Shown here: positions 1-31,297 of the stretch, piece by piece
Layout: the number at the start of each line of letters is the position of its first letter
Numbering within the stretch: position 1 is the stretch's first letter
NCBI RefSeq assembly: GCF_017301615.1
Contig: NZ_CP059066.1
Span: forward strand, 1,905,001 to 1,969,000
Direction of reading: 5' to 3'
DNA length: 64,000 nt
DNA from: Koleobacter methoxysyntrophicus
GTDB taxonomy: Bacteria > Bacillota > Thermosediminibacteria > Koleobacterales > Koleobacteraceae
The notes under the pieces: model-generated
Seen by the model: only the letters and a program-made list of their open reading frames with translations
Told to the model about the DNA's origin: nothing
The model's database searches: none
Program-made: the position numbers and the translations under genes

Positions 1-152
1 TGTCATTTAAATGATTGAGAATTAATTTTGATTCTAGTGCAAAAAGATTATTTTTCGTGATTTGATTCTGAATATAAAATATTGCAAATTTGTTTAAAAA
101 ATCTTATCCTAGCAGTTGAATCAATTTTTTTAAAAAATTTAATAACAAGCTC

Positions 153-181
153 TTGACATAGAGGTCTTGCGGTATTATAAT
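153..181 (+). promoter_or_regulatory. Promoter of the aro operon
   Basis: A perfect -35 box TTGACA (153-158) is followed after 17 bases by TATAAT (176-181). The transcript would start near 188, just before the T-box Stem I, so this is the expected promoter for the aroF-tyrA-aroA leader. Confidence 0.85.
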
Positions 182-204: not shown

Positions 205-437
205 TCAAAAGTGATGACGGAAAGAAGTAACCTTTTTAGTCTACAAAGAGAGCCGGTGGTTGGTGTAAACCGGTTAGACGAAAGGTGAAATACATTCCTG
301 AACTGCAGGCTGAACGGTAGGTTTACCCTGTAGGCTGTGCCGTAATTTACGTTATAAAGCAGAGTGGATTTATCCTTGGATAAATCAACTTGGGTGGTAC
401 CGCGGATTAGACCTCGCCCCATACGGGCGGGGTTTTT
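205..437 (+). promoter_or_regulatory. T-box riboswitch, tyrosine-type, first antiterminator/terminator module
   Basis: T-box leader that reads uncharged tRNA. Stem I spans roughly 205-340 with the AGAGAG motif at 248-253. The specifier codon is probably TAC (291-293, tyrosine): it follows GAAA and precedes a purine, in the same register as the GTC valine specifier in the valS leader further along. The T-box core GGGTGGTACCGCG lies at 392-404. The competing terminator is CCTCGCCC...GGGCGGGG followed by five T (412-435). Uncharged tRNA-Tyr should favour read-through into aromatic amino acid synthesis. The specifier assignment is by alignment by eye and not by structure calculation. Confidence 0.88.
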
Positions 438-463
438 GGTTCCATACGGTTGTATTATCTCCG

Positions 464-519
464 GGATAAATCAACTAGGGTGGTACCGCGAGATCTCGTC
501 CCTAAAGGACGGGATTTTT
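464..519 (+). promoter_or_regulatory. Second T-box antiterminator/terminator module without its own Stem I
   Basis: Bases 464-490 repeat 378-404 with 26 of 27 identical, including the complete T-box core GGGTGGTACCGCG. The repeat is followed by its own terminator hairpin (about 494-518: CGTCC...GGACG and a T run). Only about 27 bases separate the first terminator from this copy, too little for a second Stem I. The leader therefore has one tRNA-reading arm and two decision modules in series. Confidence 0.85.
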
Positions 520-554
520 GATTTTCAAAAATTCTACTGGAGGTGTAGTTGAGA

Positions 555-1580
555 ATGATAGTTGTAATGAGAGAGGATGCTACACAGGAAGACATTGAAC
601 GGATATCTGAATTTATCAGGGGTTTGGGTTTAGATGTCCATATCTCGAAGGGGGCTGAAAGGACAATAATCGGTATTATCGGGGATAGGAGGATTGTGGC
701 GGATAAGCCTATTGAAATGATGAATGGAGTTGAAAAGACAATTCTCATAGCTGAACCATATAAACTGGCCAGCAGGTCCTTTAAACCGGAACCTACAATT
801 GTAAAAGTTGGGGATGTGGAAATCGGCGGTGAAGAGATTGTGTTGATAGCAGGTCCCTGTGCTGTTGAGAGCCGGGAACAGGTATTTCAGACGGCAGAAG
901 CCGTTAAAAAGGGCGGAGGCAAAATTCTAAGGGGTGGAGCTTTTAAACCGAGGACATCTCCTTATTCCTTCCAGGGCCTAGGAGAGGAAGGCCTTAAAAT
1001 CCTCGCTGAAGCCAGGGAAAGGACCGGGCTTCGAATAGTAACTGAAGTTATGCGGACAGATCATATTGATGTTGTTGCCGAATATGCCGATATTCTCCAG
1101 ATAGGAGCAAGAAATATGCAGAACTTCCATTTATTAAAAGAAGCCGGTAAAACCAAAAAACCGGTAATGTTGAAAAGGGGTTTATCGGCCACTATTGAGG
1201 AATGGTTGAATGCTGCGGAATATATAATGAATGAAGGGAACTTCAATGTAATTCTGTGTGAAAGAGGTATAAGGACCTTTGAAACCCAGACCAGAAACAC
1301 CCTTGACCTGAGTGCTGTTCCACTTATCAAGAGATTAAGCCATCTCCCGATAATTGTAGATCCTAGCCATGGCACCGGGAAATGGAGGCTGGTAGCTCCT
1401 ATGTCAAGGGCGGCTATAGCTGCCGGCGCGGATGGGCTCATGATTGAAGTTCACCCGAATCCTAAAGAAGCATGCTCTGACGGGCCTCAATCCTTAAATT
1501 TAGAAAATTTCTTTGAACTTACATGGGAAATTAAGAAGATTGCTGAAATAATGGGGAGAAGATTCGATGGTGAGAATTGA
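555..1580 (+). CDS. aroF: 3-deoxy-7-phosphoheptulonate (DAHP) synthase
   Basis: Catalyses the first step of the shikimate pathway, condensing phosphoenolpyruvate and erythrose 4-phosphate. The protein has a short N-terminal ferredoxin-like regulatory domain (about residues 1-70, beginning [10 protein letters not shown]) and then the TIM-barrel catalytic domain with [36 protein letters not shown] and DPSHGTG. This matches the Thermotoga/Bacillus short form of about 340 residues. ATG 555 gives the usual family start; a TTG at 549 is closer to the Shine-Dalgarno GGAGG (539-543) and cannot be excluded. The gene is first in an operon with tyrA and aroA and is controlled by the tandem T-box leader. 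Confidence 0.96.
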
Positions 1581-2412
1581 AAACATAAGTATTATTGGCC
1601 TCGGTATTATAGGCGGATCTCTGGCTAAAGCTATAACCAAAAGAGGGTTATCGAAAAAGGTAACCGGCATCGATATTGATGAAAAAATAGTCAAAAAAGC
1701 CTTAGAGGAAAAGGTTATTGACAGAGGCAGTATTAATCTGGAAACTGTAAAAGGTTCGGATTTGATATTCATTTGCACGTATGTAATGAATATCCCTAAG
1801 ATACTGCAGGAGATTTCACCCTATCTTAAACAGAACAGTATTGTCACAGATGTGGGAAGCACAAAAGAAATGGTCATGGCCAGGGCAAGGGATTTCCTCC
1901 CTAAAGGGGCATATTTTGTAGGTGGTCATCCGATGGCGGGAAGTGAACAATCGGGGTTTCTATTCTCACGGCAGGATATGTTTGATAAAATGCCTTATAT
2001 TATCACCCCCTATAATGATACACCGAAAGTGGTCATTGAAGCTCTAAAAGACATAATAGAAGGGATAGGAGCAAAAGTCGTTATAATGTCTCCGGAACAA
2101 CACGATTATGTTGTCGGGCTTGTAAGCCATATACCACAAATTATGGCATCGGCTATTGTAAACTTTACGAAAGAAGTTGAAGGATGCGATAGGGTGATAG
2201 GGAAGGGTTACTTGGATTTTACCCGGATAGTTTCTTCAAATCCCCGAATGTGGAAAGACATCCTTCTATCCAATAAAGGGAATATCCTTGAACTATTAGC
2301 CAGGTTAAGAAATAGGTTGGAAACCCTGGAAGAACTAATCGAAACAGGTGATGAACAGGGGATTAAGGAGTTTTTTTGTAAAGCCAGGTCCTACAGGGAG
2401 GGATTACAGTGA
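1567..2412 (+). CDS. tyrA: Prephenate dehydrogenase
   Basis: Converts prephenate to 4-hydroxyphenylpyruvate with NAD(P)+, the tyrosine branch step. The N-terminal Rossmann motif [10 protein letters not shown] is at about residues 10-19. [10 protein letters not shown], a typical prephenate dehydrogenase active-site segment, is near residue 120. At 281 residues it lacks the C-terminal ACT regulatory domain seen in many Bacillus TyrA proteins. The start overlaps the end of aroF by 14 bases, with GGGGAGAA as ribosome binding site, indicating translational coupling. A tyrosine-specific gene in the operon agrees with the TAC specifier read in the T-box. Confidence 0.95.
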
Positions 2413-3704
2413 TCATCCACAATTGTGAACAAAAAATTATAAAGGGAGAATTACAGGTTCCCGGTGATAAATCTATCTCTCACAGAGCCGTTATGCTGGG
2501 TTCTATTGCAAATGGGACCACAGTAGTAAAGGGGTTTTTAATGGGAGACGACTGTCTTAATACTATCGCCTGTTTTAAAGAAATGGGAATAGATATAGAG
2601 GTGGGAGATGATAACAGGGTTATAATACATGGAAAAGGCCTTAAAGGACTAAAGGCACCGGCAGGCCCCCTGTATGTAGGTAATTCGGGGACTACCATCC
2701 GCCTTCTTTCAGGGATTTTGGCAGGGCAGCCCTTTAAAGTAACTATTACCGGAGACCAATCCATTAAAAGGAGGCCTATGGGCCGTGTCATTGAACCGCT
2801 AAGACTCATGGGAGCCAGGATTTCCGGGGAAGGAGGAGATAATTTCGCTCCCCTTACCATAAAGGGTGGGAAATTAAAGGGAATCACCTATAAAAGCCCT
2901 ATTGCCAGTGCACAGGTTAAATCAGCTATACTTCTAGCCAGCCTTTATGCAGATGGTCAGACGGTAATTGAAGAACCCTATAAATCACGGGATCATACGG
3001 AAACTATGATAAATTACTTCGGGGGAATGGTAAAGGTAGAAGGAAACAAAATAATCAGCAAACCGGTGGACAGGATAGAAGGAAGAGAAATATGGGTGCC
3101 CGGGGATATTTCCTCTGCTGCCTTTTTCATAGTTGCTGCTTTGATTTTGGATGGTTCGGAATTGATTATTAGAAATGTAGGCATAAATCCGACCAGAACG
3201 GGAATTATCGAGGTATTGCAGGAAATGGGGGGCAGGATAGAGGTGATTAATAAAAGGATGATATGCAATGAACCGGTTGCCGATATCAGGGTATGTTCAA
3301 GCCCTTTGAAAGGAACGGTTATAGGCGGCGAAATGGTTCCCAGAATGATTGATGAAATTCCTGTCCTTGCAGTAGCAGCCCTATTTGCTTCCGGGAGGAC
3401 TTATATAAATGACGCTCATGAGCTCAAGGTAAAAGAGAGCAACAGGCTGACCGCTATTTGTTCCGAACTGAGGAAAATGGGTGGAGGTATTAGGGAAAAG
3501 GAAGATGGATTGACTATATACGGAGATAATAAATTAAAATTAAAAGGTGCGGTAGTCGATTCATATAGAGATCACAGGATTGCTATGTCCCTTGCTGTTG
3601 CCGCCTTAAAAGCCTGCGGCAAAACGGAAATAATAGGTTTTGATTGTGTAGATATATCCTTCCCAGGGTTCTACGATGTAATGATGAAGGTATTAGATGT
3701 TTAA
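2409..3704 (+). CDS. aroA: 3-phosphoshikimate 1-carboxyvinyltransferase (EPSP synthase)
   Basis: Transfers the enolpyruvyl group of phosphoenolpyruvate to shikimate 3-phosphate. Visible motifs are [10 protein letters not shown] near the N-terminus, [14 protein letters not shown] near residue 90, [11 protein letters not shown], the KESNRL segment and [16 protein letters not shown] near the C-terminus. Length 431 is normal. [10 protein letters not shown] with alanine after GNSGTT-IRL fits the class II-like bacterial enzymes, but I do not assign glyphosate behaviour. The GTG start overlaps the tyrA stop by four bases (GTGA), so the three genes form one translationally coupled operon. Confidence 0.97.
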
Positions 3705-4017: not shown

Positions 4018-4174
4018 AGTCAGTAATGTTGCACAAAAATTTTAAGAAGATATCAAGCATAAAAATGATAAATTATAGTTATTGTTATATTTTTATAGTT
4101 ATTTTTCTTCTCTACGGTTAAAAGGGCAATCTCTTAAAGGTAGCCCTTTCCACATTTTAACATCAAGTATTCTT

Positions 4175-4315
4175 TTAGAGTATTATCGGATCATGAGTTA
4201 AATCGTCCAAATGATCCGCCTCGCCTGCTATCACCTGCCTTAGGGTTTCTTGAAATATCCTTTCATGGTCTATTTTCCGCCGTCTTTTGGAGCTTCGTTT
4301 AGGCTTACGATAAAG
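4175..4315 (-). pseudogene. Transposase C-terminal or internal scrap
   Basis: On the minus strand this short stretch reads ...DHERIFQETLRQVIAG followed by EADHLDDLTHDPIIL and a stop. The RIFQ...LDDLTHDP pattern resembles the segment around the second strand of DDE transposases of the IS1380 type (typically RI-x-Q...D-x-LRHDP). It has no start and nothing recognisable upstream, so it can only be a fragment. The family guess is weak. Confidence 0.35.
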
Positions 4316-4368
4316 CTTCTGGACAAAATAAGGAAACGGTTCCGGCCCACTGTTTCCCGGAAGGGGGC

Positions 4369-4611
4369 ATGCATATAACCACACGGAGTATTGAATATAT
4401 GATATCCAGGTATGCCTATGATGCCAGACTGGAGAATGTAATACCGCCCGTTTTGAGGCACACTTTCTATAAATCTCTAGTGGACGCCAGGGAGAGTCTA
4501 AACAGGGTTACGATGCTTGCCGGCCATGCTGATTTGAACACAACAGTTAAATATACTAGACTTACAAGGAAGGATCTTCAGATCAGTGTTGATAAGCTAG
4601 CCTGGGAGTAA
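4369..4611 (+). pseudogene. Tyrosine recombinase (phage-integrase family) C-terminal fragment
   Basis: Encodes about 80 residues containing LRHTFYKSLVDARESLNR and then LAGHADLNTTVKYTRLTRKDL. These match the last two catalytic boxes of XerC/D-like recombinases: the H-x-x-R-like LRHTF helix, the G-H box, and the tyrosine nucleophile in the KYTR segment. The N-terminal two thirds, including the first catalytic arginine, are missing, so it is a relic. A second, more decayed copy of the same region follows at 4673. Confidence 0.75.
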
Positions 4612-5402: not shown

Positions 5403-8400
5403 GTGGAAGTCATCAATAACATCGGCAAAACATTGGGTGATGACCTAAAAAAAAACATCGGCAAAAAGGCTAGGCTTTCCATTGCCGCCTCTTGTTTCTC
5501 TATTTATGCTTACGAAGCCCTTAAAAAAGAGCTGGCACAAATAGAAGAGCTGCGCTTTATTTTTACCTCCCCTACCTTTATTACTGACAAGCTCAAAAAA
5601 GAGAAACGAGAATTTTATATCCCCAAGCTCAACAGGGAAAAAAGCCTCTACGGTACAGAATTTGAAATCCGGCTAAAAAACGAGCTGACGCTAAAGGCCA
5701 TTGCCAAAGAGTGCAGCCAGTGGATAAAACAAAAGGTAACTTTCAAGTCCAATAATACCAGCTGTACTCTGCAGGGTTTTATCAACGTGGAAAACGGCAC
5801 GGAAAAAGTGACCTATATGCCTGTAAATGCCTTTACAACTGTGGATCTAGGCTATGAAAAAGGCAATGCTCTTTCTAATATGGTTAATAAATTTACAGAT
5901 TATCCTATAAGCAAGCATTATTTTGATCTGTTTGAACAGGTATGGCAGGACGAAGAGAAACTTACCGATGTGACGGACCAGGTAATTGAGCATATATCAA
6001 CTGTTTACAAAGAAAATTCGCCTGAATTTATTTACTTTCTAATTCTTTACAACATTTTTAATGAATTCCTTGAAGACATATCCCAGGATCTGCTTCCTAA
6101 TGAGGCCACAGGATTTAAGGAAACCGAAATATGGAAACGGCTCTATCATTTTCAAAAAGATGCGGTCATTGGCGGTATTAACAAGCTGGAAAAATACAAC
6201 GGCTGCATCCTGGCCGACAGCGTAGGCCTGGGTAAAACCTTTACTGCCCTAGGGATCATCAAGTATTACGAACTGCGCAACAAATCTGCCCTGGTACTCT
6301 GTCCCAAGAAGTTGGGAGAAAACTGGCTTACCTTCCGGCAAAATGTCACCAACAACATTTTATACCGCGACCGGTTCCGTTACGATGTGCTGTATCACAC
6401 CGACCTATCCCGGGAAAGCGGTTATTCCAACGGTATCCCCTTAGATCGAATCAACTGGGGCAATTACGATCTTCTGGTTATCGACGAGTCTCACAATTTT
6501 AGGAACAACGAAGCCAGAAAAGAAAAGGAGACCCGCTACCAGAAGCTGATACGCAAGGTAATTCAGGCTGGCGTTAAAACCAAAGTTCTCATGCTCTCGG
6601 CCACTCCGGTCAACAACCGTTTCAATGACTTAAAGAACCAGCTGGCCTTGGCCTACGAGGGTGATCCGAAAAATATCAATTCCGCCCTTAATACCGAAAA
6701 AGGTGTAGAAGAAATATTCCGCCGGGCCCAGACGGCATTTAACAGCTGGTCCAAGTTGCCTATGGTCATGAGAACTACTGAAACCCTGCTGGAAATGCTG
6801 GACTTTGACTTTTTTGAACTATTGGACAGCGTTACCATTGCCCGTTCTAGAAAACATATCCAGAAATACTACGATACAAAAGAAATCGGTCCCTTCCCAA
6901 AGCGTTTAAAACCCCTTTCTTATTACTGCGATCTCACTAAGCGGCAGGACGTGATAGACTACAACGAGATATTTAGAGAACTTTCCCGCCTAACCCTGGC
7001 CCTTTATGCGCCTTTTAATTACATATTACCCAGCAGGATAAGATTTTACGAAGAACAGTACGATACTGTGGTCAGAAGTGGGGGAAGCTTGAAGCAGTTG
7101 GACCGGGAGAGAAGCCTGCAAGTCCTGATGCGGATCAATCTGCTCAAAAGGCTGGAAAGCTCCGTAGAAGCTTTCCGGATCACCCTTACCAAGATGCTGG
7201 AAAAGATTAATGAAACCATAGACCTTATAGATAGCTATAACGAAACTGCTACTTCCCAGACCTTTGGCCATACTGAATTTGATGCCGTGAACCTGGACGA
7301 TGATGACTGGCTGGACGAGAATTACAACATAGGCGACAATATCAGGATTAACCTCTCTGATATGGACAGGCTCCGCTGGCGGGAAGACTTGGAGCGGGAC
7401 CGTAAAGTTTTTGCCAATTTACTGGAAGAGATGAAGAAGATCACACCGGAACACGATGAGAAGCTGGCTACTCTCAAAGAAGTGATTGCTCATAAAATAA
7501 ACAACCCCATTAATCCGGGTAACAAGAAAATATTAATTTTCACGGCCTTTGCGGATACGGCTGCCTACCTTTATAAGTACATTTCTCCCTATGTAAAAGA
7601 CGCATTCGGACTGGAAAGTGCCAAAGTAGTGGGCAGCGATGAAAACAAAACTACTATCAAGATAAAAAATGACTTGCATACTATACTGACTTGCTTTTCT
7701 CCCCGGTCAAAGGAAAAGCATCTTACCATGCCGGACCTTAAAGGAGAGTTGGATGTTCTAATTGCCACCGACTGTATCTCCGAGGGTCAAAACCTGCAGG
7801 ACTGTGATTACTTGATCAATTATGATATACACTGGAACCCTGTCAGGATTGTCCAGCGTTTCGGGCGCATCGACAGAATAGGCTCCCGGAACACCGTTAT
7901 TCAGCTGGTAAACTTCTGGCCCAATATGACTTTGGACGATTATATTAGGCTTAAAGAAAGGGTAGAAAACAGGATGGTTATCATGGATATGACCGCTACC
8001 GGGGAGGACAATGTCCTTTCCAACCGGTCCAGTGACCTGGAGTACAGAAAAGAGCAGCTCAAGAAGCTCCAGGAAGAAGCCATTGACTTTGATGAGATAA
8101 ATTCCGGTGTTTCTATTACCGACCTTGGGTTAAATGATTTTCGTATGGACCTGGTTCAGTATGTAAAAGAAGAAGGCGACCTGAGTAAGGTTCCTCCCGG
8201 CCTGCATGCTGTTGTACCTGTCGATATGGAAAAGGGTGCTCCTCCCGGTGTTATCTTCGTCCTGCGCAATGTTAACAGCGAAGTAAACATAAACAACCAA
8301 AACAGGCTACATCCCTTTTACCTGGTCTATATTGGCAGCGACGGGCAGGTTGTTGCCAACCACTTGGAGGTAAAAAAGACCCTGGATTTATTAAGGTTAT

Positions 8401-8660
8401 TGTGCAAGGGGCGCAGGGAGCCTGTAGCGGAAGTCTATAAACCTTTTAACCGGGAGACCAGGGACGGCCGCAAAATGGACAGGTATTCCCACCTCCTGGA
8501 AGAGGCCATAAAGTCTATTATCGATGTCAAAGAAGAAAGCGACTTGGACAGCCTTTTCAGTGCCGGCGGCACCACGGCTCTTCTGGATACTGTGCGGGGC
8601 CTGGAAGACTTTGAACTGATTGCCTTCGTGGTGGTGAGGGAGAAGGATGCCCGTGTTTAA
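5403..8660 (+). CDS. SNF2-type superfamily 2 helicase with PLD-like N-terminal region
   Basis: An ATP-dependent DNA translocase of 1085 residues. The first ~150 residues resemble the phospholipase-D-like N-terminal region found in defence-associated helicases, though no clear H-x-K-x4-D motif is visible. Walker A DSVGLGKT is at about 272-279, DESH at 361-364, SATP at 399-402, and the C-terminal helicase motif QRFGRIDRIGSRN near 818. It is the first gene of an operon with a DUF4391 protein (14-base overlap) and, before an insertion, directly with type III mod and res genes. It probably supplies an extra translocase for that restriction system. The start is a GTG with a weak ribosome binding site. 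No nuclease motif was seen in it. Confidence 0.85.
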   Translation: MEVINNIGKTLGDDLKKNIGKKARLSIAASCFSIYAYEALKKELAQIEELRFIFTSPTFITDKLKKEKREFYIPKLNREKSLYGTEFEIRLKNELTLKAIAKECSQWIKQKVTFKSNNTSCTLQGFINVENGTEKVTYMPVNAFTTVDLGYEKGNALSNMVNKFTDYPISKHYFDLFEQVWQDEEKLTDVTDQVIEHISTVYKENSPEFIYFLILYNIFNEFLEDISQDLLPNEATGFKETEIWKRLYHFQKDAVIGGINKLEKYNGCILADSVGLGKTFTALGIIKYYELRNKSALVLCPKKLGENWLTFRQNVTNNILYRDRFRYDVLYHTDLSRESGYSNGIPLDRINWGNYDLLVIDESHNFRNNEARKEKETRYQKLIRKVIQAGVKTKVLMLSATPVNNRFNDLKNQLALAYEGDPKNINSALNTEKGVEEIFRRAQTAFNSWSKLPMVMRTTETLLEMLDFDFFELLDSVTIARSRKHIQKYYDTKEIGPFPKRLKPLSYYCDLTKRQDVIDYNEIFRELSRLTLALYAPFNYILPSRIRFYEEQYDTVVRSGGSLKQLDRERSLQVLMRINLLKRLESSVEAFRITLTKMLEKINETIDLIDSYNETATSQTFGHTEFDAVNLDDDDWLDENYNIGDNIRINLSDMDRLRWREDLERDRKVFANLLEEMKKITPEHDEKLATLKEVIAHKINNPINPGNKKILIFTAFADTAAYLYKYISPYVKDAFGLESAKVVGSDENKTTIKIKNDLHTILTCFSPRSKEKHLTMPDLKGELDVLIATDCISEGQNLQDCDYLINYDIHWNPVRIVQRFGRIDRIGSRNTVIQLVNFWPNMTLDDYIRLKERVENRMVIMDMTATGEDNVLSNRSSDLEYRKEQLKKLQEEAIDFDEINSGVSITDLGLNDFRMDLVQYVKEEGDLSKVPPGLHAVVPVDMEKGAPPGVIFVLRNVNSEVNINNQNRLHPFYLVYIGSDGQVVANHLEVKKTLDLLRLLCKGRREPVAEVYKPFNRETRDGRKMDRYSHLLEEAIKSIIDVKEESDLDSLFSAGGTTALLDTVRGLEDFELIAFVVVREKDARV

Positions 8661-9306
8661 TCTGCCGAAAACAACCCTGGTAAATAAAAAAATACCCAAG
8701 AACAAATTTTATGAGAGGCTGCAGGCAGGCAAAAGCCTTAAGGAAAAATTTATCCGCCAGGTGGATTATATATTGTGGAAGCACAAGCTTTCCCGGCATA
8801 CCGTTAACCTTTTCCCGACTAAGGAAATCGAGGAGATACAGGTTTTTGAGATTCACCTGAAACAAAAGAACCTATCCCGGGAAGTTCTGGAAAGCATCGA
8901 TCGGGCGGTACCTTACCCCATCCTTTTCGCCCTGGTTTACCATGACGAAGTCCAGCTGGCGATCGCCTATAAAAAACGAAGCAAACAGCATGAGGACCGC
9001 TTTGTGGTCGATTCATATTATTACTCCCCGTGGCAGAAAATCGAAGATGTATCCCTGGACCTGCTAAAAGGGCTGGATTTGCAGGCCGTTTACGAAAATA
9101 TCATAAAAAGCTTTATGCCTATCAGCAAGGGCAGTAGTCAGAACCTGGAACAGGCTATTGAAAAACAGAAGGCAGCCGACAGGTTAAAGCGGGAAATTGC
9201 CGCCCTGGAGGCTAAAATGCACAAAGAGCGTCAGTTTAACCGTAAGGTAGAATACAACCTGAAGCTGCAGGAGAAAAGAAAGGAACTGGAGAAGTTATTA
9301 AAGTAA
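8647..9306 (+). CDS. DUF4391-like protein of the restriction operon
   Basis: A 219-residue protein starting MPVFNLPKTTLVNKKIPKNK and containing LKEKFIRQVDYILWKHKLS, ETVNLFPTKEIEEIQVFEI-like and LFALVYHDEVQLAIAYK segments, typical of the DUF4391 family that is commonly found beside SNF2 helicase and type III mod/res genes. The C-terminus (about residues 170-219) is a charged coiled coil (IEKQKAADRLKREIAALEAK...). Its molecular activity is unknown; the context suggests a bridging or regulatory subunit. It overlaps the helicase by 14 bases. Its last codons and the following ribosome binding site are repeated at 13537-13586, which marks the site where the SIR2-HerA segment entered. Confidence 0.75.
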   Translation: MPVFNLPKTTLVNKKIPKNKFYERLQAGKSLKEKFIRQVDYILWKHKLSRHTVNLFPTKEIEEIQVFEIHLKQKNLSREVLESIDRAVPYPILFALVYHDEVQLAIAYKKRSKQHEDRFVVDSYYYSPWQKIEDVSLDLLKGLDLQAVYENIIKSFMPISKGSSQNLEQAIEKQKAADRLKREIAALEAKMHKERQFNRKVEYNLKLQEKRKELEKLLK

Positions 9307-9330
9307 GGGAGGTTTTGCATAATGGAGAAG
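9281..9330 (+). repeat. Left copy of ~50-bp direct repeat flanking the SIR2-HerA insert
   Basis: Contains the end of the DUF4391 gene (…KELEKLLK stop), AGTAAGGGAGG and a start-like ATGGAGAAG. Bases from AAAGGAACTG to GGGAGG agree with 13537-13570 at 29 of 34 positions, and the similarity continues through TTTGC and ATGGA. It corresponds to the ancestral DUF4391-mod junction. Confidence 0.8.
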
Positions 9331-9450
9331 CCGTCAACGTTGCAAAATAAAATTCCAACTGGATGTACAGAGATACAGCCAAATGATGTTTTGATCTGCA
9401 GACTCTGAGAACCCGTAGGTCGTGCATGCCTTGCTCCGAGACTTGGGGTC

Positions 9451-9694
9451 CGCTTCCTCGACATAGCCGCAGCGTAGATTGACCGTGCCATTGCCTCTGC
9501 CCTCGTTCGCGAGAACCGTACCTGACTGTTCGACGACTTGGTCACCTGCAAGCTGGACGTGCGCTAGGTGGCTGTGCGGCTGTAGGATGAAACTGAGGAG
9601 CCCAAACTGCTCGATGATGCGGAGGCGCTGGAAGAAGCTGCGGTGGAAGACAAAGGCGCGATTTTCGATAAAGCTCTGATGAGGAGGTGCAATC
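9451..9694 (+). pseudogene. Decayed C-terminus of a type I restriction specificity subunit (HsdS)
   Basis: One frame reads RFLDIAAA-stop-IDRAIASALVRENRT-stop then LFDDLVTCKLDVR-stop-VAVRL-stop and DETEEPKLLDDAEALEEA. This follows the conserved HsdS tail (FLDRETA-IDxAIA...REYRT-LI-D-VTGKLDVRE-AxxLP-E-EEP..LDEAEAL), with four stops where sense codons are expected. There is no start and the recognition domains are gone. It lies immediately before the SIR2 gene and suggests that the SIR2-HerA pair arrived as cargo of a type I restriction locus. Confidence 0.75.
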
Positions 9695-11083
9695 ATGACA
9701 TTTGATGATATGCAGATTCTCAAATGTTGCGATGACAAGAAGCCTGTTTATCTCTTAGAGGTTGAGGAACAAGGCGGTCAAGTTTATAAGTTGGCAGACG
9801 AAAGTCAGTGTTCCTGGCTAAAGAGCAACGAGACTATTGATACCCCAAAGTTGCGGCAGAGAATTGAACCATGGCTATGTGCCTTGTTCCAATCGGAGCA
9901 TCTCGCTCTGCTGGTGGGCTCAGGATTGACCCATGCGATTCATTATATGGCGACCGGCAAAGAACCACCGTGGACCAATATACAATGTAAGTTTACTTGC
10001 TACCAAAATGAGATTGAGGCCGAGGTAAAGAGGTCTGCCAGTGTCATTGGTCGCGGAGAGGGAAATATCGAGGACTACATTCGCGTGGCAAACGAGTTAC
10101 TCCGTGGGCTGGAAATCTACAAACCAGGCGACCAAAAGGTGGCACAACTCAGAAAGGATTTAAACCGCGTTCTCGGTGAATTTGCTGAATCGATTCTCAA
10201 TGGCGAAAGAGGCTTGATCAGTGCAGAACCCGAGAAACGTGAGCAGGCTTTCAACTACCTTGTCAGCTTCTTGATGAGTTTCGCCAGCCGAACCGGTACT
10301 CGAGACAGGCTCCATATCTTCACGACCAACTACGACCGCTTCATTGAAGCTGGCGCGGACGCGGCAGGCCTCCGCCTGCTCGACCGCTTCGTGGGTTCAC
10401 TGGCACCGGTCTTTCGGTCCTCTCGACTCGATGTGGACATGCACTACAACCCGCCTGGAATTAGAGGTGAGCCGCGCTACCTGGAAGGCGTTGCGCGATT
10501 CACGAAACTGCACGGTTCATTAGATTGGGTGGACCTCGAGGGGAGCATTCGTCGTATTGCAATTCCGTTCGGAGCAAAAGACATGAATCCGTACTTGAGT
10601 GCCCTCGGTCTTTTGGGTGTTGAGGCGATGCAGCTTATGATTTATCCGAACGCAGCCAAAGACCGTGAGACCGCTGCTTACCCATATGTCGAGTTATTCC
10701 GCGACTTTGCCGCTGCGGTGTGCCGGCCCAACAGCACATTAGTTACTTTCGGCTACAGTTTCGGTGATGAGCACATCAATCGTGTTATTGAGGACATGCT
10801 CACTATTCCTTCGGCCCACTTGGTCGTGATGTCATATAGCGATCCTTTGGGGCGAATTATGAAAACGTATGAGAGACTGGGAAGACATGCGCAAATCACC
10901 CTCCTGATCGGCAATCACTTCGGTGATCTACAATCACTTGTGGATAACTATCTGCCTAAGCCAGCCATTGATCGGACCACCTTCCGTATGGCTGAGCTTC
11001 TCAGAAATCGCTGGGTAACGGATCATATTCAACCGACTGTGGATAGTAACATGCCACACGGGGAAGGAGGTGGCATGCCATGA
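9695..11083 (+). CDS. SIR2-like NAD-consuming defence effector (SIR2-HerA system)
   Basis: A 462-residue protein with a SIR2-like domain. Visible elements are LLVGSGLTH (nucleotide loop, about 72-80), TNYD (211-214) and KLHGSLDW (271-278), carrying the asparagine and histidine expected in the active site, and TFGYSFGDEHIN (351-362) near the end of the Rossmann fold. Defence SIR2 proteins cleave NAD+ to stop phage growth by metabolic arrest. The ATGA overlap with the following HerA-type ATPase gene fits the known two-gene SIR2-HerA (Nezha) arrangement, in which the two form a large complex. A strong ribosome binding site GAGGAGGTG precedes ATG 9695. Base composition is richer in GC than the surrounding genes, which indicates transfer. 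Confidence 0.85.
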   Translation: MTFDDMQILKCCDDKKPVYLLEVEEQGGQVYKLADESQCSWLKSNETIDTPKLRQRIEPWLCALFQSEHLALLVGSGLTHAIHYMATGKEPPWTNIQCKFTCYQNEIEAEVKRSASVIGRGEGNIEDYIRVANELLRGLEIYKPGDQKVAQLRKDLNRVLGEFAESILNGERGLISAEPEKREQAFNYLVSFLMSFASRTGTRDRLHIFTTNYDRFIEAGADAAGLRLLDRFVGSLAPVFRSSRLDVDMHYNPPGIRGEPRYLEGVARFTKLHGSLDWVDLEGSIRRIAIPFGAKDMNPYLSALGLLGVEAMQLMIYPNAAKDRETAAYPYVELFRDFAAAVCRPNSTLVTFGYSFGDEHINRVIEDMLTIPSAHLVVMSYSDPLGRIMKTYERLGRHAQITLLIGNHFGDLQSLVDNYLPKPAIDRTTFRMAELLRNRWVTDHIQPTVDSNMPHGEGGGMP

Positions 11084-13218
11084 ACCAAACGCCGTTCGAA
11101 CATGCCGGTAGTTTGTGCATCGGAACCGTAGATTTCGTGTCGCCCGATGAGATCAAGGTTTTGTTGGATATCGAGGCTCCCGAATCGGTTGCCCTCAATG
11201 CCGGCGGGCCGCGTCCCTTTCCAAGGGTCAACAGCTATGTGCTGATGCCTGTTGATGATGGTTATCTCGTTGGGCAAATTGAGTGGATAACGGTGGAACG
11301 GTCAGAGTTTCCAAAGCGCCGGGGGATGCAGGATTTTGGCCTCGTTGACTTGCCCTTCCCGCTGCGCAAGATGAGCCTCAACCCGCTGGGAACCTTGCGA
11401 AAGAAAGATCTCCAGACGGAGGAATACATTTTTCGGCGGGGCGCTGACGCCCTGCCGTCGATTGGCACCACTGTGCTGTTGCCCACTGAACGGCAGCTTC
11501 GAGCAATCGTGGAGTCGGGGGAACAACGTCGTGTGAAAATCGGTACCAGCCCGCTTGCTGGTGATGCTGATGTGTGGATCGATCCGGACCGGTTGTTTGG
11601 GCGGCACCTCGCAGTGCTCGGAAATACCGGTAGTGGGAAGTCGTGTTCAGTTGCCGGCCTTATCCGCTGGTCCCTGGAAGCAGCGCAAGAGTTCAGTTCC
11701 GGCTCACTGAACGCTCGTTTTATTATTTTGGACCCGAATGGAGAATACTCGCGGGCTTTTAGTGACGCGGGGTCTTCCGTGAAGGCTCAGATTTTCAAGG
11801 TAGCTCCTGACGCTGGAGCAGAAGAACTGCCGCTTCAGGTTCCGCTGTGGTTTTGGAATAGCGCGGAGTGGTCATCGTTTACTCAAGCAACCGATCGCGC
11901 ACAACGCCCCTTACTTCAGCAGGCCTTGCGGTTTCGTCGCAATTCAATGCCGCATGGGCAGCAGAACACATTATCTCATGACCTGCTAGTTTACCTTCAA
12001 GGCGCGTATTCATCAATTCGCCAAGAAGTAGCAAACAATGCACCTTTTGGAACAACAAAAGATAGAAAGTATTGGGGGTTCATTGATTTACTAAAATCTA
12101 TAGCGGCTTCGCTTAGGGCATTTATGCAAAAGGCAGATTCACATCAAGAATCCATCAAAACTGTTCTCGAAACTCTAGATAACCTTAAGGACGTTAAGTG
12201 CAAGAACGAAAGAAACTACAACAAGCCTTTTGATTATGGTGATGTTGATGAGTTTCTTTCTCTACTACACAAAACGATTAAATCGTTGGGTGGAAGCGAT
12301 GCGGAACCATTGCCTATCAGCGAGGACGTTCCAATACCATTTTGCGGAGACGACTTCCTTGCTGACCTAAACTTCTTAGCAACTAATAGCGGCAATCGTC
12401 AATGGTTTGACTTTTTTCTAGTCCGTGTTAGAACGATGCTGAATGACCCTCGCATGAGTGCGATTGTGAGTAATAAGAGTGCAATCTCGTTAGCTGAGTG
12501 GCTTTCGAACTACATCGGCGAAGAAAATGCGAATAGCAGATGCATATCCGTCCTCGACTTGTCTCTCGTTCCGACAGAGATTGTTCACATCATCACAGCC
12601 GTGATAGCACGCATGGTATTTGAAGCTCTCCAGCGATACCGGGAACTATACACCGTATCTCTCCCGACGGTCCTGGTGATGGAAGAGGCGCATACCTTTA
12701 TCAAACGCTACAAAGAAGATGCTGAGAACCACGATGCTGCCTCGGTGTGTTGCCAGGTATTTGAACGAATCGCCCGTGAGGGACGGAAATTCGGGCTCGG
12801 GCTGGTACTTTCGTCTCAAAGGCCATCTGAACTTTCACCTGCGGTTCTTTCTCAGTGTAATTCATTTCTCTTGCATCGGATAACCAATGATCGTGATCAG
12901 GAGCTGGTTCACCGGTTCGTGCCTGATAATCTCAGGGGCCTACTGCGTGAGCTCCCGTCGCTCCCATCCCAAAGCGCCATTCTCTTGGGTTGGGCAACAG
13001 AACTGCCGGTTCTTGTGAAGATGAGAGACCTGCCCAAGTCTCAGCAACCACGCTCTGACGATCCAGACTTCTGGAATGTCTGGGTTGGTCAAGATGAAGA
13101 AGGAAGGGCGGTTGAGAGGCGGGCAGACTGGAAATCTGTCGCAGAGGAGTGGCAAGGAACTGCCCGGAAGGTTGACCCAACAGACGCAGTCTCCGAGGGT
13201 AAAGCCGAGGAGGAATAG
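11080..13218 (+). CDS. herA: HerA-type ATPase/translocase partner of SIR2
   Basis: A 712-residue HerA/FtsK-fold ATPase. The N-terminal ~100 residues resemble the HAS barrel of HerA. Walker A GNTGSGKS is at 181-188, Walker B VLVMEEAH near 533-540, and a motif SSQRPSELSPAVLSQCN plus RITNDRDQELV follows, as in HerA/VirB4 ATPases. It would form a hexameric ring on which SIR2 subunits dock. The start overlaps the SIR2 stop by four bases. The stretch from about 11990 to 12560, between the Walker boxes, is more AT-rich than the rest of the gene, which hints at a mosaic origin. The gene is longer than HerA proteins of about 500-600 residues because of this insert. Confidence 0.87.
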   Translation: MNQTPFEHAGSLCIGTVDFVSPDEIKVLLDIEAPESVALNAGGPRPFPRVNSYVLMPVDDGYLVGQIEWITVERSEFPKRRGMQDFGLVDLPFPLRKMSLNPLGTLRKKDLQTEEYIFRRGADALPSIGTTVLLPTERQLRAIVESGEQRRVKIGTSPLAGDADVWIDPDRLFGRHLAVLGNTGSGKSCSVAGLIRWSLEAAQEFSSGSLNARFIILDPNGEYSRAFSDAGSSVKAQIFKVAPDAGAEELPLQVPLWFWNSAEWSSFTQATDRAQRPLLQQALRFRRNSMPHGQQNTLSHDLLVYLQGAYSSIRQEVANNAPFGTTKDRKYWGFIDLLKSIAASLRAFMQKADSHQESIKTVLETLDNLKDVKCKNERNYNKPFDYGDVDEFLSLLHKTIKSLGGSDAEPLPISEDVPIPFCGDDFLADLNFLATNSGNRQWFDFFLVRVRTMLNDPRMSAIVSNKSAISLAEWLSNYIGEENANSRCISVLDLSLVPTEIVHIITAVIARMVFEALQRYRELYTVSLPTVLVMEEAHTFIKRYKEDAENHDAASVCCQVFERIAREGRKFGLGLVLSSQRPSELSPAVLSQCNSFLLHRITNDRDQELVHRFVPDNLRGLLRELPSLPSQSAILLGWATELPVLVKMRDLPKSQQPRSDDPDFWNVWVGQDEEGRAVERRADWKSVAEEWQGTARKVDPTDAVSEGKAEEE

Positions 13219-19637: not shown

Positions 19638-19714
19638 CGGGGCGTAGCGCAGTTTGGTAGCGCACATGGTTTGGGACCATGGGGTCGGGGGTTCAAATCC
19701 CTCCGCCCCGACCA
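19638..19714 (+). tRNA. tRNA-Pro (anticodon TGG)
   Basis: Acceptor CGGGGCG pairs with CGCCCCG. The anticodon loop TTTGGGA sits in a CATGG/CCATG stem, the T arm GGTTCAAATCC is standard, and CCA is encoded. Confidence 0.97.
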
Positions 19715-19774
19715 TTAACCATCCTTTGCGGGAGCAGCTCGAGGGCTAGAGCCTAGCTTTCCAAGGAAAAAAAT

Positions 19775-19851
19775 GCGCCCGTAGCTCAGGTGGATAGAGC
19801 AACGGACTTCTAATCCGTGTGCCGGGGGTTCGAGTCCTCCCGGGCGCACCA
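19775..19851 (+). tRNA. tRNA-Arg (anticodon TCT)
   Basis: Acceptor GCGCCCG pairs with CGGGCGC. Anticodon loop CTTCTAA, T arm GGTTCGAGTCC, encoded CCA. Confidence 0.97.
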
Positions 19852-19859
19852 TAAATCGC

Positions 19860-19937
19860 GGTGGGTGTAGCTCAGCTGGTTAGAGCACCAGATTGTGGCT
19901 CTGGGGGTCGTGGGTTCAAGTCCCATCATCCACCCCA
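19860..19937 (+). tRNA. tRNA-His (anticodon GTG)
   Basis: Acceptor GTGGGTG pairs with CATCCAC. The extra G-1 (19860) opposite C73 is the histidine identity element. Anticodon loop TTGTGGC, encoded CCA. Confidence 0.96.
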
Positions 19938-19951
19938 TTAATAATGTTTAA

Positions 19952-19979
19952 AAGCCTCACTGAAGAATGAGGCTTTTTT
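19952..19979 (+). terminator. Terminator after the tRNA cluster, possibly bidirectional
   Basis: Stem AGCCTCA/TGAGGCT with a T run on the plus side and an A/T-rich tail on the other. It also lies just beyond the 3' end of the convergent spoVA operon. Confidence 0.85.
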
Positions 19980-19988
19980 ATTATAGTT

Positions 19989-20195
19989 TTACTGCTGCTG
20001 AAACATGGGATTGTTTTTTTTGAGGTAATCGAGCCTTAAATTAAGGGTATCTATATGATGCTGCATATCTTGAGACAATTCATTAAACATTTTTTTAACA
20101 GCCTTGTCCTGGGTCTGTTCGGCAAAGGTAGAATACTGGCCTAAAAGTGACTGGGCACTTGCTATGGCCTTCTGCAGATCACTCTGCACTGTCAT
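19989..20195 (-). CDS. DUF1657 family protein of the spoVA operon
   Basis: A 68-residue soluble protein starting MTVQSDLQKAIASAQSLLGQ and ending LKKNNPMFQQQ. It is mostly helical and fits DUF1657, a family found next to spoVAC-spoVAD-spoVAEb genes (the spoVA2mob-type operons) in spore formers. The start at 20195 is chosen because GAGGAGGTG precedes it; a longer reading frame upstream has no ribosome binding site. It is the last gene of the operon. Its biochemical role in the spore is unknown, though related operons influence germination and heat resistance. Confidence 0.8.
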   Translation of the reverse strand: MTVQSDLQKAIASAQSLLGQYSTFAEQTQDKAVKKMFNELSQDMQHHIDTLNLRLDYLKKNNPMFQQQ

Positions 20196-20217
20196 TCGAA
20201 AAGCACCTCCTCTGTAA

Positions 20218-20577
20218 TCATCCTTTTGGTTTAAATACCAGAGCAATAAGAAAACCGAAAACGATTGCTGCTGTAATCCCGGTACTTGTAAGTTCAAACA
20301 TTCCTGTTAGAATTCCGATAGCACCGTGTCTTTTTGCTTCAGTGATTGCTCCCTTTACCAGTGAGTTTCCGAAACTAGAAATGGGCATCGTAGCTCCCGC
20401 ACCGGCAAATTGAATTAATGGCTCATATAAGCCCAATCCCCCTAAAATCCCTCCGATTACCGTCAATCCTACCAAAACATGAGCCGGGGTCAATTTTGTT
20501 AAATCCATAACAAGTTGCGAAGCTAAACAGATTAATCCACCTACCAGAAAAGCCTTTATATACATCTGCCATTCCAC
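20218..20577 (-). CDS. spoVAE: Stage V sporulation protein AE (SpoVAEb)
   Basis: A 119-residue membrane protein with about four hydrophobic segments (FLVGGLICLASQLVMD, VLVGLTVIGGILGGLG, a central FAGAGATMPISSFGNSLVKG loop, and AAIVFGFLIALVF). This matches SpoVAEb in length and in the GAGATxPI-SFGNSL motif. With SpoVAC and SpoVAD it forms the channel that moves Ca-dipicolinic acid across the spore inner membrane. It follows spoVAD by 17 bases. The operon is expected to be made in the forespore under sigma-G, but I found no convincing promoter. Confidence 0.95.
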   Translation of the reverse strand: MEWQMYIKAFLVGGLICLASQLVMDLTKLTPAHVLVGLTVIGGILGGLGLYEPLIQFAGAGATMPISSFGNSLVKGAITEAKRHGAIGILTGMFELTSTGITAAIVFGFLIALVFKPKG

Positions 20578-20594
20578 TTTCTAACAACTCCTTT

Positions 20595-21614
20595 TTATAT
20601 CATTTCGATACTTACTGCATGGGCAATAGTCGGTATGTTTTCCCCCTGTTGATAGGATGTTGGGCTGTGAAGGGCCCCTGTGGCCGCTAATAAAATTTTA
20701 TTGTACTTACCGTCAAGGAGTTTTTTATATAGGTAACTGTAGACGACCAGAGCTGAAGATGCACAACCGCTTCCTCCTGCGTGGACATCCTGTTTTTCCA
20801 AGTCATATATAATAAGGCCGCAATCATGGTAATTTCGGCTCAAGTCAAATCCCCCCTGAGCAGCTGCCAGTTCCATAACCAGTTGGTATCCGACCTTTCC
20901 AAGGTCGCCTGTTACAATTAGGTCATAATAATCAGGGCCGTGACCCGTATCAGCAAAATGTTGAAGCATTGTTGCGGCAGCAGCTGGAGCCATAGCAGCT
21001 CCCATGTTCAGCGGGTCTTTACAGGCCAGATCCTGAACAGCTCCTATTGTGGCAGAAGTTAGTTTTGGCCCTGACCCTTCCGAAGCAACTAGAGCAGCCC
21101 CCGCCCCTGTAACCGTCCACTGGTTGTAAGGCTTCCTATGAACGCCGTATTCCGTTGGGTATCGGTACTGTCTTTCTGCCGATAAATTATGACTTGAAGT
21201 TGCAGTAAGGACGAGATTTGCACAACCGCTTTCTATAATCATGGAAGCCAATGCCAGGCCTTCAGAGGAAGTGGAACACGCTCCGTAAATACCTAAATAA
21301 GGTATTTTGAGTTCTAAAGCAGAGAATCCGGAGGTTATAATTTGGTTCAAGAGATCCCCTGCAATAAATAGGTCAACTTCTTTAGGAGTTTTTTTTGCTT
21401 TATTGATTACCGTAAAACAGGCATTTAACATCATTTCCTTTTCAGCTTTTTCAAAACTATCCTGGCCTGCCAGATTATCGGTATATATGTGATCAAAATA
21501 GTTCTTTAAAGGCCCCTTGCCTTCAAAGGGACCGGCTACCGTTGCAGTGTTTATAAGGACAGGCGGTTTGTCAAAAATAAATGTCTGTTTGCCGACTTTT
21601 TTAGCCATTTTCAT
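20595..21614 (-). CDS. spoVAD: Stage V sporulation protein AD
   Basis: A 339-residue protein with a thiolase-like fold, including GIYGACSTSSEGLALAS around the position of the thiolase cysteine, and HAGGSGCASSALVVYSYLYK near the C-terminus. In spores it binds dipicolinic acid and acts as the soluble plug of the SpoVA channel on the inner membrane. Length and order (spoVAC-spoVAD-spoVAEb) are standard. The start could also be the ATG two codons later (21608). It follows spoVAC by 19 bases. Confidence 0.96.
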   Translation of the reverse strand: MKMAKKVGKQTFIFDKPPVLINTATVAGPFEGKGPLKNYFDHIYTDNLAGQDSFEKAEKEMMLNACFTVINKAKKTPKEVDLFIAGDLLNQIITSGFSALELKIPYLGIYGACSTSSEGLALASMIIESGCANLVLTATSSHNLSAERQYRYPTEYGVHRKPYNQWTVTGAGAALVASEGSGPKLTSATIGAVQDLACKDPLNMGAAMAPAAAATMLQHFADTGHGPDYYDLIVTGDLGKVGYQLVMELAAAQGGFDLSRNYHDCGLIIYDLEKQDVHAGGSGCASSALVVYSYLYKKLLDGKYNKILLAATGALHSPTSYQQGENIPTIAHAVSIEMI

Positions 21615-21633
21615 AACCCCTTATTTTCGCTAT

Positions 21634-22101
21634 TTAATAAATGAATATGGCATAGTACAGTCCAATAAAAAAAGCAGTAACTACACCGAAAGTAATAATA
21701 GATCCGGCTAAAATAAACATCTTGCTTCCTACTCCCAGAACGAGCCCCTCCCGCTTAAATTCTAAAGCTGAAGAAACTATCGAATTTGCAAAACCCGTTA
21801 CCGGGACTGAAAGGCCCGCTCCTGCATATTTTGCGATTTTATCGAAAACACCTATTCCCGTTAACAGTGCTCCTATAAATATCATAGTGGCAATAGCCGG
21901 GTTTCCTGCCTGAGTCTTTGAGAGGTCCATTGTTACCATATAAAAATCCGTTATAAACTGCCCTATAATGCATACAGTACCGCCGAATAAGAAAGCCATT
22001 AGCGCATTTCTTATTATAGGTGGCTTGGGTTCCATTTTTTTAACCAGTTGCTGATATTTCTTCTGCTGTGGTGAAAGAGATTTTTTCTTTTTTTTGGGCA
22101 T
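21634..22101 (-). CDS. spoVAC: Stage V sporulation protein AC
   Basis: A 155-residue membrane protein with a lysine-rich N-terminus (MPKKKKKSLSPQQKKYQQLV) and four to five hydrophobic segments, including AFLFGGTVCIIGQFI and AGAGLSVPVTGFANSIVSSA. SpoVAC is the mechanosensitive pore component for dipicolinic acid movement in sporulation and germination. It is the first gene of the minus-strand operon; the upstream stretch to 22252 is AT-rich and holds no clear sigma-G promoter. Confidence 0.95.
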   Translation of the reverse strand: MPKKKKKSLSPQQKKYQQLVKKMEPKPPIIRNALMAFLFGGTVCIIGQFITDFYMVTMDLSKTQAGNPAIATMIFIGALLTGIGVFDKIAKYAGAGLSVPVTGFANSIVSSALEFKREGLVLGVGSKMFILAGSIITFGVVTAFFIGLYYAIFIY

Positions 22102-22252
22102 CGAATCACCCCTACTAAGGATTATACTAAGTAATGTATATATAAATAATATGACTATTAATTTATTGAATCTTAATATATTTTTACCCTAATTTGAGTT
22201 TTTAATAAAGCCAATAAATGGTTAACGTTATAAAAACTTCTTCCGATTTTCC

Positions 22253-22281
22253 TTGACCCAAAAACTTTTTTTTGCTATAAT
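22253..22281 (+). promoter_or_regulatory. Promoter of the second tRNA cluster
   Basis: TTGACC (22253-22258), a 17-base spacer and TATAAT (22276-22281), 21 bases before tRNA-Arg. Confidence 0.82.
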
Positions 22282-22301
22282 TGAATTTGTCGAAACACTA
22301 G

Positions 22302-22378
22302 GCGCCCGTAGCTCAGCTGGATAGAGTTACAGACTTCGAATCTGGAGGTCGCGGGTTCGAATCCTGCCGGGCGCACCA
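22302..22378 (+). tRNA. tRNA-Arg (anticodon TCG)
   Basis: Acceptor GCGCCCG/CGGGCGC, anticodon loop CTTCGAA, T arm GGTTCGAATCC, encoded CCA. Its acceptor stem equals that of the tRNA-Arg(TCT) in the first cluster. Confidence 0.97.
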
Positions 22379-22391
22379 TAAGTAAGAGCAT

Positions 22392-22467
22392 TGGGGCGTC
22401 GCCAAGTCGGTAAGGCACGGGACTTTGACTCCCGCATGCGTAGGTTCGAGTCCTGCCGCCCCAGCCA
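22392..22467 (+). tRNA. tRNA-Gln (anticodon TTG)
   Basis: Acceptor TGGGGCG/CGCCCCA, anticodon loop CTTTGAC, T arm GGTTCGAGTCC, encoded CCA. Confidence 0.96.
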
Positions 22468-22468
22468 T

Positions 22469-22544
22469 GGGCCATTAGCTCAGGCGGTAGAGCACCTGAC
22501 TTTTAATCAGGGTGTCGGAGGTTCGAGTCCTCCATGGCTCACCA
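22469..22544 (+). tRNA. tRNA-Lys (anticodon TTT)
   Basis: Acceptor GGGCCAT pairs with ATGGCTC (one G-T). Anticodon loop CTTTTAA, T arm GGTTCGAGTCC, encoded CCA. Only one base separates it from tRNA-Gln. Confidence 0.96.
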
Positions 22545-22558
22545 TTAGAATAAAATTA

Positions 22559-22643
22559 GCGAGGGTGGCGGAACTGGCAGACGCGCAAGATTTAGGATCT
22601 TGTGTCGAAAGGCGTGGGGGTTCGAGTCCCTTCCCTCGCACCA
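22559..22643 (+). tRNA. tRNA-Leu (anticodon TAG)
   Basis: Acceptor GCGAGGG/CCCTCGC, anticodon loop TTTAGGA, long variable arm TGTCGAAAGGCG as expected for a class II tRNA, encoded CCA. Confidence 0.96.
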
Positions 22644-22649
22644 TATTGT

Positions 22650-22724
22650 GCGGAAGTGGCTCAGTGGTAGAGCATCGCCTTGCCAAGGCGAGGGTCGCGG
22701 GTTCAAATCCCGTCTTCCGCTCCA
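22650..22724 (+). tRNA. tRNA-Gly (anticodon GCC)
   Basis: Acceptor GCGGAAG/CTTCCGC, anticodon loop TTGCCAA, T arm GGTTCAAATCC, encoded CCA. Confidence 0.97.
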
Positions 22725-31033: not shown

Positions 31034-31067
31034 AAAAAGAAAATATCATAAATAAAATAGATAATTG

Positions 31068-31297
31068 CAATGATGGGGAGGAGTAAAGGAAATTTCCCTA
31101 AAGAGAGGAAAACCCGCCGGCTGAAAGGTTTTCCGGTAGAGATTTCCTTGAAGGTCGCCCTTAAGCAGCTGAATTGAATTAAAATAGTAGATTCAGCCGG
31201 AAACTCCGTTAATCTATAAGGGTCTGCTGCTTGGCAGAAATTAAGGTGGTACCGCGGAAGAAAGCCTTTCGTCCTTTTTAGGATGAAAGGCTGTTTT
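31068..31297 (+). promoter_or_regulatory. T-box riboswitch, valine-type
   Basis: Leader with a Stem I including AGAGAGG (31101-31107), a specifier region GAAGGTCGCC in which GTC reads valine, and the T-box core AAGGTGGTACCGCGG at 31243-31257. The terminator AGCCTTTCGTCC/GGATGAAAGGCT plus T run is at 31263-31297. Uncharged tRNA-Val should promote valS expression. Confidence 0.92.

Follow-up and report, generated by a model that had tools for sequence, protein, structure and literature searches.

A tyrosine T-box leader with two modules upstream of aroF-tyrA-aroA

The window analyzed here is the whole stretch of 64,000 nucleotides at positions 1905001-1969000 of the single-contig 3.10 Mb genome of Koleobacter methoxysyntrophicus. 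Close to its start lies the operon aroF-tyrA-aroA, and pheA, equipped with a T-box of its own, is found just upstream of the window.

549..1580, + strand: aroF, DAHP synthase (over the cut-off of TIGR01361; exact start codon uncertain)
1567..2412, + strand: tyrA, prephenate dehydrogenase (best match 261 bits, under the cut-off of that model)
2409..3704, + strand: aroA, EPSP synthase (over the cut-off of TIGR01356)

Elsewhere, the window contains a second T-box with a single module (31061-31279, 132 bits), eight tRNA genes clustered in two groups (19638-22721) and four successive open reading frames (5403-13218), whose products resemble, by eye, a helicase, a small protein, a SIR2-like protein and a HerA-like ATPase; they possibly constitute a phage-defence island.

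The region 205-519 is a tyrosine T-box leader upstream of aroF-tyrA-aroA. The RF00230 covariance model matches 205-424 over its full length (model positions 1-219) with 141.2 bits against a cut-off of 93, and the leader displays the hallmarks of this family: Stem I, a specifier, a UGGN sequence that fits the tRNA, and a predicted pair of mutually exclusive antiterminator and terminator structures.

153..181, + strand: sigma-70-type promoter TTGACA-17-TATAAT, 12/12 consensus positions (consensus match only)
205..424, + strand: complete T-box leader with Stem I, Stem II/IIA-B region, Stem III and antiterminator 1 (RF00230)
291..293, + strand: specifier codon UAC (Tyr) within GAAA-UAC-A (Rfam consensus alignment; GAAATACAT at 287; tRNA-Tyr(GUA) genes)
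362..366, + strand: GAGUG, consistent with the RRRxG purine string located before Stem III (sequence; motif as given in PMC7583486)
367..378, + strand: 5' strand of Stem III (367-374) and loop, the proposed single shared strand X
379..388, + strand: 3' strand of Stem III of module 1, followed by AA
391..421, + strand: antiterminator 1 with T-box core 392-404 and UGGU bulge (predicted, -6.7 kcal/mol)
412..437, + strand: terminator 1, stem 412-419/425-432 and U run 433-437 (hairpin 412-432 predicted at -15.2 kcal/mol; consensus scan)
455..474, + strand: half-discriminator Y of module 2, a copy of the Stem III 3' strand (463-472) with upstream extension and AA (473-474)
477..503, + strand: antiterminator 2 with T-box core 478-490 and UGGU bulge (predicted, -5.5 kcal/mol)
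493..519, + strand: terminator 2, stem 493-501/507-515 and U run to 519 (hairpin 493-515 predicted at -12.6 kcal/mol; consensus scan)

The two GGGTGGTACCGCG cores begin at 392 and 478, resulting in a spacing of 86 nt. The original prediction started from the near-identity of 378-404 and 464-490, and direct comparison confirmed that 26 of the 27 bases agree; about half of this identity is the universal T-box core, while what is informative is the Stem III 3' strand GGATAAATCAACT, on which the two copies agree completely. Each core was also expected to have a terminator of its own, and both indeed come with a predicted antiterminator, a terminator hairpin and a U run, the two structures being predicted as mutually exclusive in either module. 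The proposed arrangement, in which a single Stem I serves two serial decision modules, is likewise supported: there are two core/terminator units, RF00230 covers 205-424 only, no second match is present in 425-520, and the 86-nt spacing leaves no room for a second Stem I before module 2. The tRNA-Tyr genes of this genome specify the anticodon GUA and end in ACCA, which fits the UGGU of both T-boxes.

The description of module 2 requires revision. While its T-box core, antiterminator and terminator are complete, its discriminator domain (RRRxG - Stem III - AA - antiterminator) is not: AA and antiterminator are present, but a Stem III hairpin of its own scores no better than shuffled sequences (p 0.63), and neither a purine string nor RRGTG was seen. 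The 5' strand of Stem III in module 1 is complementary to the 3' strand of Stem III in module 2, and segment 463-472 of Y is able to pair with 367-376 of X. At the level of sequence, the leader comprises one Stem I and two T-box/terminator units with the same UGGN base, the second lacking a Stem III hairpin of its own.

Leaders with several modules recur in diverse bacteria

In the genome of K. methoxysyntrophicus, 5 of the 23 RF00230 matches belong to doubled leaders, as judged by a motif scan and the leader sequences. These precede aroF (Tyr), a sodium/solute symporter (Tyr), an aminotransferase (Ser, UGGC), a phenylacetate-CoA ligase-like gene (Phe) and trpE (Trp, UGGC), with specifiers assigned by eye. 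A search for pairs of exact cores separated by 50-80 nt, run across the genomes of 84,980 species with a pattern that demanded T at both N positions, yielded 52 stretches. RF00230 exceeded its gathering score at 45 of these and matched six others more weakly; the last, L056, consists of coding repeats and was rejected as a doubled leader. Two N-tolerant cores were detected 50-80 nt apart in 4/101 and 81-111 nt apart in 8/101 of the nearest genomes, and a wider draw contained the 50-80 nt form in 9/398 genomes. The original prediction had called a duplicated antiterminator unusual, which is true in part: multi-module leaders recur in records from Bacilli, Negativicutes and Chloroflexi, among others, and the class is a known one.

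Our collection of 70 leaders combines the 5 own leaders, 52 from 50 of the 52 exact-core loci and 13 from the N-tolerant searches. Nine loci from the latter searches were removed as copies, either of own leaders (L076, L080, L082, L114) or, as we took them to be, of L025, L041, L029, L064 and L049 (L077, L078, L081, L118 and L123, respectively); for L005, the core positions were set manually. Rfam support at E<=0.01 or better was obtained for 69/70 leaders, with no match for L122 and a weak one for L121. The specifier regular expression applied to the 70 leaders is crude and was relied on for few loci. L059 was left out before the counts since no usable terminators were found; it later scored 47.7 bits with RF00230. 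This locus (908-1080) sits at the end of a contig from a rumen metagenome-assembled genome and has three near-identical cores 86 nt apart, each module being followed by AACTGCACC, which is complementary to the 5' side of the first Stem III, making a long-range terminator possible.

More than two cores occur in 10 of the 70 leaders, three in 7 and four in 3. The four-core leaders all come from Lysinibacillus and carry the Phe specifier UUC (by eye), with cores placed 88-89 nt apart behind one Stem I (L060, 421-687; L065, reverse strand, 3397-3664; L069, reverse strand, 4162-4428). They are followed by a sodium-dependent transporter gene (family shown for L060). In L060, the fourth module has decayed, having lost the 3' strand of its antiterminator and its terminator.

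Two further designs were observed. In Negativicutes leaders with 62-69 nt spacing (L025, 5232-5294; L064, 1868-1930; and others), terminator 1 seems to pair with the T-box core itself, in that GGGUGGUACC pairs by eye with GGUGCCACCC, followed by a U run, instead of with the antiterminator 3' strand; this seems to be a different switch design. In L017 (trpE), L112, L113 and L117, at 103-117 nt spacing, an extra helix GGUAUCGG...CCCGUACC separates IIA/B from Stem III. The 3' half of this helix (CCCGUAUC/CCCGUACC) recurs ahead of module 2, which looks as though this strand, too, were shared.

Closely spaced second modules are mostly predicted half modules

With regard to a second Stem III, two spacing groups stand apart. 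At 103-123 nt, second modules frequently retain one, and in L110 and L117 Rfam separately matches module 2 from model position 159 on, whereas those at 62-98 nt, including the one in the aroF leader, are mostly without it. Among 25 representatives with a spacing below 100 nt, a Stem III-like hairpin beat shuffled sequences (p<=0.05) in 11 first and 3 second modules, with mean z values of 1.26 and 0.11, and the RRGTG purine string was present in 12 and 3, respectively. The AA following Stem III is present in 58/70 first and 61/70 second modules. Below 100 nt, module 2 is by these predictions a half module, which has kept the Stem III 3' strand, AA and the antiterminator; given that the right half of the domain is retained and the left half is missing, a left half would be needed from elsewhere. 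Short local hairpins may exist in the downstream modules of the Lysinibacillus group.

How such a module arose can be addressed by comparison. An assembly duplication is unlikely, since the genome is a single contig, terminators and spacers have diverged, and four other own leaders as well as many genomes are alike. The suggestion that a second Stem I had been lost was not borne out: no trace of one exists in the sequence, and relatives from the class were compared (26 genomes; Rfam was run on 16 loci, namely L007 and 15 of the 26 aroF-hit loci). Apart from the locus studied here, a T-box directly precedes aroF in L084 only; most other scanned aroF-hit loci have a T-box ~1 kb upstream. Since L084, the only other scanned locus with a T-box directly before aroF, has a single module, it is simpler to assume that the 3' part was duplicated.

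The N base of the T-box bears on tRNA reading by module 2. It is equal in both modules at 21/21 distinct loci from the N-tolerant searches (15 TT, 6 CC), a count from which the exact-core loci were kept out because their pattern had demanded T at both positions. This equality would be the best sequence evidence that module 2 reads tRNA, weakened by shared descent. Separately, in the first pair of L043 (4765/4861), a leader from the exact-core set, the N base is T and then C, the sole leader with differing bases.

The first Stem III and the second module are complementary

We defined X as the 5' strand and loop of the first Stem III and Y as the stretch just before the second core. At first look, X:Y duplexes ended at the expected place in many leaders. 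Free RNAduplex runs over long regions were set aside, as large internal loops dominated (mean z -0.61; 12/85 at p<=0.05). With fixed windows, RNAduplex gave p 0.0057 for the whole region and p 5e-5 for the 3' arm only, while the upstream/loop extension was not significant (p 0.49). We then scored helices anchored at the Stem III position, using as null the swapping of Y among 32 leader clusters, inside which leaders are related. The anchored helix scored a mean of 21.0 with its own Y and 15.1 with swapped ones (p<=5e-5; 32 cluster representatives), although anchored p-values are not fully blind, the anchoring having been chosen after the duplexes were seen. A rank of <=0.05 was reached by 14/32 representatives, and the aroF leader came first among 32 partners. 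Control windows gave p 0.22 (-140..-100), p 0.53 (+12..52) and p 0.029 (-95..-55).

Since descent alone makes a copied 3' strand complementary to the original 5' strand, the loop-facing part of Y was tested separately. Five representatives in which no first Stem III could be defined were excluded; in the remaining 27, extension into the loop of Stem III-1 gained 4.85, compared with 2.27 for swapped spacers (p<=5e-5). Descent, on these predicted pairings, leaves the loop extension unexplained. Both helix and loop results hold in 12 random draws of representatives, as well as without the two leaders poorly supported by Rfam, for spacings <100 nt only, and without the own genome (p 5e-5 to 3e-4). 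At spacings >=100 nt alone, the helix remains significant (p 0.009) but the loop gain does not (p 0.13; n=7 representatives). In the aroF leader, the loop gain by itself is modest (rank 0.12), and recent descent could be enough for the identical 3' strand of this leader to pair with X. No X:Y advantage was seen in L032, L033, L049, L068 and L072 (ranks 0.42-1.00), nor in L112 (0.42) and L115 (0.52).

Individual leaders display matching changes. In L003, the paralogous Tyr leader of the same genome, the Stem III loop reads CUGAA vs CUUG and Y is changed to UUUCAGGAUAGGUC, the X:Y helix spanning ~20 columns with one mismatch and one bulge. Among 22 Negativicutes leaders, X reads AUC-GA (or GUC-GA) in 14, AUCUGA in 7 and AUCCGA in 1, and the matching Y of these classes has, respectively, no extra base, an A or a wobbling G, and a G (all by eye); given that these leaders are related, this covariation amounts to a handful of events. 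Searches for held-out leaders yielded no new one: they returned 1/398 genomes with an AAC-core variant, which was the own genome itself, 1/10 in the class of G182, already known, and three stretches in viral contigs, all short tandem repeats with no Rfam match. Judged by the leader sequences, we conclude that X and Y are complementary in register.

Folding energies speak both for and against such pairing. With terminator 1 formed and the bulge of T-box 2 open, the forced X:Y helix gave -49.7 kcal/mol and the forced Stem III-1 hairpin -43.0 kcal/mol; X:Y is thus favored by 6.7 kcal/mol under those constraints. The unconstrained fold of the leader retains the Stem III-1 hairpin and instead contains a duplex between T-box 1 and T-box 2 (-19.2 kcal/mol), which could lock the leader against leakage and is, in this model, a serious rival for the tRNA-free state.

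Two serial checkpoints may share one Stem III strand

We consider it probable, with considerable reservation, that the leader constitutes two serial checkpoints fed by one tRNA-reading arm, whose modules share a single Stem III 5' strand by exchange. Uncharged tRNA-Tyr would bind Stem I at the specifier UAC, its ACCA end would pair with UGGU in antiterminator 1, and terminator 1 would be passed by RNA polymerase. Module 2 would then emerge with T-box, antiterminator, AA and Stem III 3' strand, lacking a good 5' strand or purine string, and its 3' strand, aided by the loop complementarity, would capture the 5' strand that had formed Stem III in module 1. Discriminator 2 would thereby occupy the place of discriminator 1, so that the acceptor end of the tRNA bound to Stem I would be tested again at terminator 2. 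The aroF-tyrA-aroA genes would be transcribed only when both tests are passed; leakage with charged tRNA would consequently multiply down and the response would steepen. We infer in this way that module 2 responds to tRNA, that strands are exchanged, that one tRNA is used twice and that control becomes steeper. The tighter control suggested in the original prediction would follow from having two terminators in series. Two strong serial terminators fit a feedback-controlled first enzyme of the pathway, and the earlier idea that a bound tRNA opens one module at a time agrees well with strand sharing. A more far-reaching version, which we put forward tentatively and hold to be possible rather than likely, is a relay riboswitch: one tRNA bound to Stem I would be passed along two to four half-discriminators through loop-assisted strand invasion, all using the same Stem III 5' strand, and the leader would perform kinetic proofreading by RNA, checking this tRNA repeatedly for its amino acid ahead of operon transcription, with as many steps as there are copies of the half module.

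Other readings are conceivable. The two modules might be independent serial gates, module 2 acting as a minimal discriminator of its own that binds the same or a second tRNA with no sharing of strands. We regard this as unlikely, even though antiterminator 2, its UGGU and terminator 2 are intact, a weak UUAUC/GAUAA hairpin could form at 455-469, and a real second Stem III exists in some other leaders (L009, L109): in the aroF leader the second Stem III does not stand out from shuffles and no purine string was seen, antiterminators that lack Stem III are poor tRNA binders (PMC7583486), and the X:Y complementarity would be left unexplained. Should module 2 instead be a recent, decaying partial duplication, serving as an extra terminator that ignores tRNA, the exact copy of the Stem III 3' strand would be expected, and the fourth module of L060 documents that decay occurs. 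This reading is very improbable, however, as antiterminator and terminator of module 2 still match despite sequence divergence, the N base of the T-box is kept at all 21 loci, doubling is found for several different tRNAs within one genome, and a tRNA-blind terminator would merely lower expression.

The duplex between the two T-boxes suggests yet another function. After a tRNA-free leak past terminator 1, the near-palindromic T-box 1 would pair with T-box 2, block antiterminator 2 and force terminator 2; tRNA on T-box 1 would prevent the duplex, leaving module 2 as a leak suppressor slaved to module 1. While this duplex belongs to the lowest-energy fold of the leader, it would be expected between any two T-boxes, as the conserved core GGUGGUACCGC is inherently self-complementary, and retention of the Stem III 3' strand would have no explanation. 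As an account of module 2 such a lock is improbable, but it could coexist with the sharing of strands by two serial checkpoints that we favor.

Relation to known systems and implications

Vitreschak et al. reportedly named, in 2008, a T-box class with duplicated terminator-antiterminator elements. The aroF leader resembles this class in having one tRNA-reading part and two antiterminator/terminator elements, and its single Stem I and 86-nt spacing place it there. The duplication itself is reportedly described there; the present analysis adds that module 2 has lost its Stem III 5' strand, that the one of module 1 would be shared in register, and that arrays of three or four modules exist. To our knowledge, duplicated T-box decision modules have so far been without a mechanism.

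Compared with a canonical single leader of the RF00230 family, the aroF leader likewise has Stem I, specifier, Stem III, antiterminator and terminator and precedes an amino acid biosynthesis operon, yet an extra half-built discriminator and a terminator follow. Complete tandem T-boxes, such as those of trpE operons in Bacillota, share serial termination, the use of the same tRNA and an expected steeper, digital response (PMC12452182, PMC4342826); they have one Stem I per unit, whereas the aroF leader has no second Stem I. Double T-boxes may act cooperatively and sharpen the response, according to PMC9413887. Similarly, tandem riboswitches with independent terminators are described as serial terminators with one signal and pseudo-cooperative behavior (Sherlock et al., 2022; PMC9481103), but these repeat the aptamer, while the aroF leader repeats the expression platform behind one aptamer. 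A limited literature search, covering sources in part, returned no description of shared Stem III strands or of arrays of three to four modules behind one Stem I.

For annotation, the rule follows that the present Rfam model seldom reports the second half-module as a separate element. Given such strand sharing, leaders of this kind would make it directly testable whether serial RNA checks sharpen the response or lower the leak, and whether the tRNA stays on Stem I. If module 2 borrows its Stem III strand, these leaders would represent natural checkpoints of several steps, with a variable number of tests behind a constant sensor.
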